NCBI GenBank assembly: GCA_001803045.1
Contig: MHAR01000018.1
Span: 62,001-126,000 of the forward strand
Length of the DNA stretch: 64,000 nt
Direction of reading: 5' to 3'
From: Ignavibacteria bacterium RIFOXYB12_FULL_35_14
Lineage (GTDB): Bacteria; Bacteroidota; Ignavibacteria; Ignavibacteriales; Ignavibacteriaceae
Position numbers and translations under genes: made by a program
Notes under the pieces: generated by a model
The model's database searches: none
What the model was told of the DNA's origin: nothing
Seen by the model: the letters and a program-made list of their open reading frames with translations, nothing else
Shown here: positions 15,553 through 15,893 of the stretch, piece by piece
Numbering within the stretch: the stretch's first letter is position 1
Layout of the letters: each line of letters begins with the position of its first letter

Positions 15553-15625
15553 TAGCGGGGGCAGGACTTGAACCTACAACCTTCGGGTTATGAGCCCGAC
15601 GAGCTACCAATTGCTCCACCCCGCG
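15553..15625 (-). tRNA. Initiator tRNA-fMet (anticodon CAT)
   Basis: Read on the minus strand the gene starts CGCGGGGTGGAGC, has D-arm GAGC..GCTC, anticodon arm GGG-CTCATAA-CCC, T-arm with GGTTCAAG and 3' acceptor CCCCCGCTA. Hallmarks of an initiator are the unpaired first base (C1 opposite U72 instead of a Watson-Crick pair) and the three G:C pairs at the base of the anticodon stem. CCA does not appear to be encoded at the 3' end. 73 bases, with a D-loop shorter than the E. coli initiator. A terminator follows, and degenerate copies of its 5' half and anticodon region lie upstream. Confidence 0.93.
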
Positions 15626-15722
15626 ATATAATTTTATTTTTTAAGAACCTTCGGGTTATGAGTCTGCCTTCATTTTATTCCGGCGAGATAAACCCGACTC
15701 GCTTTCAATTGCTCCACTTTAT
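15622..15722. repeat. tRNA-fMet-derived degenerate repeat, copy 1
   Basis: 101-base unit beginning at the 5' edge of the tRNA gene. It holds AACCTTCGGGTTATGAG (identical to the anticodon region of the tRNA on this strand), then a ~28-base insertion, then CCCGAC and CAATTGCTCCAC, which match the D-arm and 5' acceptor side. The T-arm half is missing, so it cannot be a functional tRNA. Copy 2 lies 171 bases further on. Confidence 0.75.
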
Positions 15723-15792
15723 CCGGCAATGAAATACTAGTTTCGTTGACGGATCTATCTCGTCAATAGAATAATGATTTCATTGATGGACT

Positions 15793-15893
15793 CGCAATAT
15801 AATTTTATTTTTTAAGAACCTTCGGATTATGAGTCTGCCTTCATTTTATTCCGGCGAGACAGGCCCGACTCGTAACCAATTACTTCACTTTAT
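15793..15893. repeat. tRNA-fMet-derived degenerate repeat, copy 2
   Basis: Same unit as 15622-15722 at an offset of 171 bases. The first ~67 bases differ at only two positions; the D-arm-like part is more diverged (CAATTACTTCAC instead of CAATTGCTCCAC). Again it lacks the T-arm and carries the same inserted stretch inside the anticodon arm. Confidence 0.75.

Follow-up and report, generated by a model that had tools for sequence, protein, structure and literature searches.

Two repeated units immediately upstream of the initiator tRNA gene in a 64,000-nt stretch of DNA from Ignavibacteria bacterium RIFOXYB12_FULL_35_14 (the window) are displaced 5′ parts of tRNA-fMet. They exemplify a pattern, widespread in FCB bacteria, in which tRNA genes have been damaged and repaired in association with small GIY-YIG genes. 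Integrase islands and introns are known to insert at tRNA genes. The units are probably a nuclease-less relic of GIY-YIG elements that target tRNA genes, in which cutting and repair split or duplicated the gene and left one copy intact. A literature search, in which few subscription papers were covered, did not turn up any earlier account in which tRNA parts and GIY-YIG genes occur together in these bacteria.

Structure of the tRNA-fMet locus

The locus reads, on the minus strand, promoter, unit 2, unit 1, tRNA-fMet and terminator. The intact initiator tRNA-fMet (CAT; 15552–15625; identified by ARAGORN and, with 63.7 bits, by Rfam) is the single initiator gene found in the source genome by tRNA gene detection, and is followed by its intrinsic terminator (15523–15539). 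The sole good promoter, TTGACA-17-TATATT(TG) (15932–15960; 11/12 in a consensus scan), is the first site upstream of the units. Both units lie between this promoter and the tRNA gene; that position makes it probable that they are still transcribed with the gene and form a long pre-tRNA-fMet leader. Further upstream (16013–18833, minus strand), the window encodes 2-oxoacid:ferredoxin oxidoreductase-type subunits and a small ORF, a neighbourhood kept in several relatives.

Each unit consists of an acceptor-like start (TGCGGG or TGCGAG), a TCC..GGA hairpin insert, a D-arm region (GTGAAGTAATTGGTTACGAGTCGGG or GTGGAGCAATTGAAAGCGAGTCGGG), a 30-nt insert, an anticodon part (anticodon-loop and 3′-stem sequence CTCATAAyCCGAAGGTT) and a copy of the 20-nt leader CTTAAAAAATAAAATTATAT. 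Unit 2 (15797–15914, 118 nt) carries a 15-nt insert, TCCCGCTAAAGCGGA, that folds as a hairpin after the acceptor 5′ strand TGCGGG (hairpin A, 15894–15908), and a degenerate hairpin, TCTCGCC...GGCAGA, between GAGTCGGG and CTCATAA (insert B, 15834–15863). Unit 1 (15626–15796, 171 nt) has the same TCTCGCC...GGCAGA hairpin as insert B (15663–15692) and differs mainly in hairpin A, here a 69-nt inverted repeat with TCC...GGA ends and imperfect 30-nt arms (15722–15790). The leader copies of the two units (15626–15645 and 15797–15816) are identical. The 3′ third of the tRNA (T-arm and 3′ acceptor) is missing from both units; neither forms a cloverleaf with T-arm and acceptor, and neither was called as a tRNA by ARAGORN or Rfam.

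The similarity is beyond chance, a concern that a previous sequence-only reading of this DNA had raised: the best local scores between the tRNA and the units (17.0 and 14.5) were matched by 0 of 2,000 dinucleotide shuffles each, and the two units, 88% identical across 106 nt with a start-to-start spacing of 171, align with a local score of 72 (shuffle maximum, 15). That reading had recognized two tRNA-fMet-derived units adjoining the initiator gene, without a T-arm and distinct from a simple tandem tRNA array; we agree on each point, and the pattern is larger than it described. It placed their limit at 15893, whereas the full extent is 15626–15914, and the insertion that it put at ~28 bases is present but 30 nt long. 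It also took the units to begin like the tRNA 5′ edge; on the minus strand, which is the coding one, they precede the tRNA, and this segment is therefore the copied leader.

Counterparts in relatives and databases

BLAST searches of the units against 59 relatives revealed counterparts beside tRNA-fMet in two genomes (G021, E = 7e-10; G029, E = 1.4e-8). Both hairpin positions of the window are common to G021 (locus L009), in which the insert B position holds TCCGCCGTAGGTGGA. Displaced fMet parts occur in many other genera of the family, with the D-loop sequence CAATTG replaced by a hairpin (for example, TCCCGATAAATCGGGA), and the traces in relatives on which the sequence-only reading had made itself depend are widespread. 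A scan for this D-loop-hairpin form in 84,980 bacterial and archaeal species genomes yielded 61 stretches, 56 of which read as tRNA-fMet-derived and five of which were without tRNA-fMet context. Nearly all of the 56 belong to Ignavibacteria, Bacteroidota, Neomarinimicrobiota, Zixibacteria/GN15 and Fibrobacter, plus one Verrucomicrobia MAG; fMet units of a similar kind are spread across the FCB phyla. Within the source genome, no units were found beyond the tRNA-fMet locus. The top matches in plasmid and phage collections were ordinary tRNA-Met sequences, none of which covered the units, and the D-loop-hairpin pattern was unmatched in viral contigs. The same-genus sister species (G001) has the promoter followed by tRNA-fMet with no upstream units between them, which counts against a nuclease origin; downstream, at a contig end, it carries a tRNA part that contains TCCCGATAAAATCGGGA as an insert.

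These comparisons bear on a possible role as functional RNA, either a leader or a mimic of the initiator anticodon that regulates tRNA-fMet or decoys nucleases. The anticodon-loop sequence CTCATAA is retained, and the units are probably transcribed given their place between promoter and tRNA, both of which would fit such a role. We nevertheless regard it as very unlikely, and with it the regulatory anticodon mimic of the sequence-only reading: the number, length and hairpins of the units vary freely, about half of the family loci and the sister species lack them, the same phenomenon occurs at many other tRNAs, and the predicted folds are either no better than shuffles (unit 2, z = −0.34) or explicable by the 69-nt palindrome (unit 1, z = −2.19). 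A conserved RNA fold of the units, judged by these two values, is unsupported.

Frequency and polarity of displaced tRNA parts

Among the flanks of all tRNA genes detected in the source genome, about 14 of 41 carry same-strand displaced partial copies: fMet, elongator Met, Pro, Arg (two), Asp, Asn, Glu, Ala, Leu, Gln and Ser (two) and, weakly, Gly. Upstream copies are 5′ parts and downstream copies are 3′ parts, with non-overlapping means (U = 0, p = 6.7e-4; piece list entered by hand from the flank survey). The fMet loci of the family have the same polarity (p = 7e-4). The tRNA 3′ end is reached by 0/30 upstream pieces compared with 12/39 downstream pieces. In the displaced parts, hairpin inserts interrupt the alignment with the tRNA abruptly at nt 12/19 and 61/62, positions that fall within the D- and T-loops. 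Across 51 fMet loci in the family, pieces were detected upstream at 13 and downstream at 16, a GIY-YIG ORF downstream at 8, and pieces and/or a GIY-YIG ORF at 24, a survey that undercounts because heavily interrupted pieces (G002, G020 and the upstream part in G021) fell below the threshold. Most fMet loci with pieces have no GIY-YIG ORF, which again counts against a nuclease origin. A promoter-type box lies at −111 to −330 where upstream pieces are present, and mostly 19–60 nt before tRNA-fMet in relatives without them (p = 1.4e-5); upstream pieces push the box outward and are therefore inside the transcription unit.

Ordinary tandem duplication of tRNA genes (through replication slippage or unequal crossing-over) followed by decay, with GIY-YIG genes as unrelated passengers, would account for the leader shared by tandem units and for the pieces without an ORF at many loci. 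Such duplication is unlikely given the strict 5′-up/3′-down polarity, the sharp internal breakpoints and the share of tRNA genes hit in a single genome. The ‘pseudogene expansion’ proposed in the sequence-only reading fits the product, but leaves this polarity unexplained.

Two further arrangements were seen at other tRNA genes. One locus (L177; G072 C54) has an array of tRNA-Asp-derived 5′ parts of 127 nt, with several hairpins in each. Downstream of tRNA-Glu (L203) and tRNA-Asn (L196), a dispersed, MITE-like element of ~400 bp with inverted ends (CCCGATAAAATCGCATAGGCGTCAAC ... GTTGACGCTAATGCGATAAAATCGGG) is inserted in displaced tRNA parts.

Hairpins in displaced parts

TCC..GGA hairpins are found in the displaced parts, for the most part within the D- or T-loop. 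Among distinct D-loop inserts, 36/37 have at least two further Watson–Crick pairs inside the TCC/GGA required by the search pattern (shuffle control: mean, 3.6 hairpins; maximum, 10). Dispersed TCCCGAT(2–8)ATCGGGA palindromes occur in 55/61 family genomes, with up to 48 per genome, whereas the reversed pattern gave 0–1 and a scrambled palindrome was found in 5/61. Given that the D-loop inserts form hairpins and that TCCCGAT palindromes are dispersed, the inserts probably fall within a REP-like class of dispersed repeats. In the window units the hairpins are unusually placed, following the acceptor strand and preceding the anticodon loop rather than occupying the common D-loop site, and D-loop-like sequence is still kept; both features count against a nuclease origin. 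Hairpins of the exact TCCCGAT and TCCGCC types are absent from the window, and its inserts are more degenerate TCC..GGA hairpins than the TCCCGAT type.

The hairpins themselves could be the active mobile element, in which case REP-like TCC..GGA palindromes would insert into the conserved loop sequences of duplicated tRNA copies, and the GIY-YIG genes would be secondary. The abundance of the palindrome far above its controls and the near-uniform hairpin form of the D-loop inserts agree with this; the partial nature of the copies, their polarity and the link between GIY-YIG lineage and tRNA isotype are left unexplained, and we judge it distinctly unlikely as the whole account. A mixture of hairpin insertion and a nuclease process is possible. 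Outside tRNAs, a UPF0213-like GIY-YIG group (YILKCSD.SYYTG.TN; L108, L121, L155, L161 and L163) without a tRNA link adjoins dispersed palindromes (for example, GTCACACTGAGCTTGTCGAAGTGTGAC), hinting at a pairing of GIY-YIG genes and hairpin repeats there.

Link to GIY-YIG nuclease genes

The relatives contain ORFs of ~80–90 amino acids directly after the tRNA and its terminator that match Pfam PF01541 (GIY-YIG; E = 2e-13 to 6e-18). The complete arrangement—5′ piece, intact tRNA, terminator, GIY-YIG ORF and 3′ piece—is seen in L009, L031, L102 and others. The ORF sits directly after the tRNA, beside its putative target, in L009, L031, L117 and L118; a 3′ tRNA part with a T-loop hairpin follows it in L009 (with a second terminator copy) and L031, and a longer hairpin-bearing tRNA copy follows it in L102, L103 and L092. 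Tandem arrays of a tRNA part plus a GIY-YIG ORF include five ORFs each behind tRNA-Asp (G002) and tRNA-Leu (G020), and also occur at tRNA-Asn; in G027, three repeats of a 5′ part of tRNA-Ser and a GIY-YIG ORF precede the intact tRNA-Ser. The 3′ ends of the ORFs frequently continue in frame into the tRNA part, and several fMet-linked ORFs end in GWSPPxAE with a stop codon, TAG, borrowed from the D-arm sequence GTAGCTC. These in-frame fusions also argue against duplication with passenger nuclease genes. Among the matches listed for the source genome, 6/13 GIY-YIG genes follow a tRNA or tRNA part.

The nuclease lineage tracks the tRNA isotype. In a tree of 52 GIY-YIG proteins, all 23 fMet-linked proteins form one clade (95/80; 96% of bootstraps) that spans Ignavibacteriota, Bacteroidota-labelled MAGs and Zixibacteria; Asp-linked and Leu-linked pairs also form clades, and isotype labels require 9 changes compared with 26.1 in shuffles. 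With no more than 87 usable columns, the inner forks are weak, and the fMet clade could in part stem from vertical descent at a single locus instead of from target specificity. A truncated GIY-YIG ORF of a different look at a Cyclobacteriaceae fMet locus (L065) was too short to be placed in the tree. Next to the window tRNA-fMet (15265–15551), neither a GIY-YIG ORF nor a recognizable remnant was found when three frames were read for a decayed ORF, and none of the GIY-YIG genes sampled from the source genome, with five weaker matches lying outside that sample, belongs to the fMet clade; the locus is therefore read as a relic, and both absences weigh against a nuclease origin.

GIY-YIG ORFs also adjoin apparent parts of other genes. 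A further group in the source genome (L112, L115 and L116) follows sequences that resemble the 3′ termini of other genes (VSALAREI, CCCCGTGAGATA); these may be gene fragments that were repeated along with the ORF. Another locus (L107, 1780–2560) contains GIY-YIG ORFs in tandem, each with a recurring piece of a protein-coding gene behind it, as though that gene had been targeted.

Scars of classical tRNA-targeting islands, left at the att sites of a tyrosine integrase, must also be weighed, as displaced tRNA fragments next to a restored gene are their classical sign (PMC9897764). We consider this origin extremely unlikely: the pieces lie tens to hundreds of nucleotides from the tRNA, too close for an island, there is room for no gene between the window units and the tRNA, the relatives have a GIY-YIG ORF and not an integrase, and not only 3′ but also 5′ parts are displaced. 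A tyrosine-integrase tDNA island at the window locus, with an integrase between the intact and displaced tRNA parts, is largely excluded by spacing and gene content. Of the three options offered in the sequence-only reading, a remnant of repeated integration comes nearest, in that displaced tRNA parts mark element ends, although the enzyme linked to them in relatives is a GIY-YIG nuclease and no classical integrase.

Proposed origin of the units

A GIY-YIG nuclease would cut inside the tRNA gene, and recombinational repair would then split or tandemly duplicate the gene at the cut. Such repair would yield the arrangement that is observed: a 5′ part retained behind the original promoter, a 3′ part displaced downstream along with a copy of the terminator, and an intact tRNA gene between the two. 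The loop hairpins may destroy the nuclease target, making the displaced parts uncuttable. Two such rounds would have left the two 5′ parts upstream of tRNA-fMet in the window. We infer this cut-and-copy process from the tandem arrays, the polarity and the isotype-linked clades. A more tentative extension, which we consider possible but doubtful, is that the isotype-specific GIY-YIG elements of FCB bacteria are natural cleave-and-rescue selfish genes that cut one tRNA gene and travel with an intact copy, that D- and T-loop hairpins immunize the displaced host parts and that the window locus has passed the stage of nuclease loss.

If a nuclease origin is correct, these loci would represent tiny nuclease elements of a class that is widespread and, it seems, undescribed, and that breaks essential tRNA genes time and again, the single initiator tRNA included; they would also be chromosomal counterparts of phage SegB. 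In Bacteroidota, Ignavibacteria, Marinimicrobia and Zixibacteria, they would account for tRNA fragments that are puzzling and for the expansion of GIY-YIG genes, and each nuclease lineage with its tRNA would be a test pair for how homing nucleases choose conserved targets without killing the host.

Comparison with known systems

Group I introns with homing endonucleases occur in bacterial tRNA genes, such as cyanobacterial tRNA-fMet. They likewise tie homing nuclease genes to tRNA genes, anticodon-region positions included; unlike with introns, the tRNA part left behind here stays unjoined and is accompanied by a second, intact tRNA gene. No intron was seen at these loci, and none matched an Rfam intron. 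Integrative-element tRNA fragments and Islander-type tDNA islands (PMC9897764) resemble the present loci in that an intact tRNA copy is accompanied by a split or displaced part. They differ in that the element here is one ORF of ~250 bp with no tyrosine integrase or island, and in that 5′ parts lie upstream, 3′ parts lie downstream and hairpins lie within the parts. REP and GTAG- and CGTC-tagged palindromic repeats (PMC3733652) are similarly short, dispersed and hairpin-forming, and reports of the CGTC type come from Chlorobi and Bacteroidetes, where it has no dedicated transposase (PMC3733652); here, by contrast, TCC..GGA hairpins occupy recurrent loop positions of displaced tRNA copies.

The free-standing homing endonuclease SegB of phages T4 and T6 (PMC13096335, PMC2988022) is also a GIY-YIG gene that adjoins tRNA genes. 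SegB cuts within tRNA genes at the motif RAWTSGAAC (PMC13096335; table in PMC2988022), which by our own reading is the complement of the tRNA T-loop consensus. Its nuclease activity is required for tandem amplification of a unit of tRNA-Tyr and segB (PMC13096335), and it drives tandem repeats of tRNA and nuclease gene whose junctions lie at the 5′ end of the tRNA and the 3′ end of the nuclease. The genes in the relatives similarly encode a GIY-YIG domain and lie outside introns and inteins, beside their putative target, whereas the window locus has no nuclease and is a relic rather than a member. The elements described here differ from SegB in being chromosomal, in encoding single-domain proteins of ~85 amino acids whose cutting is deduced from the arrangement of the loci, and in involving many tRNA isotypes with isotype-linked lineages and hairpin-bearing displaced tRNA parts; the SegB repeats, unlike these elements, serve phage counter-defence.
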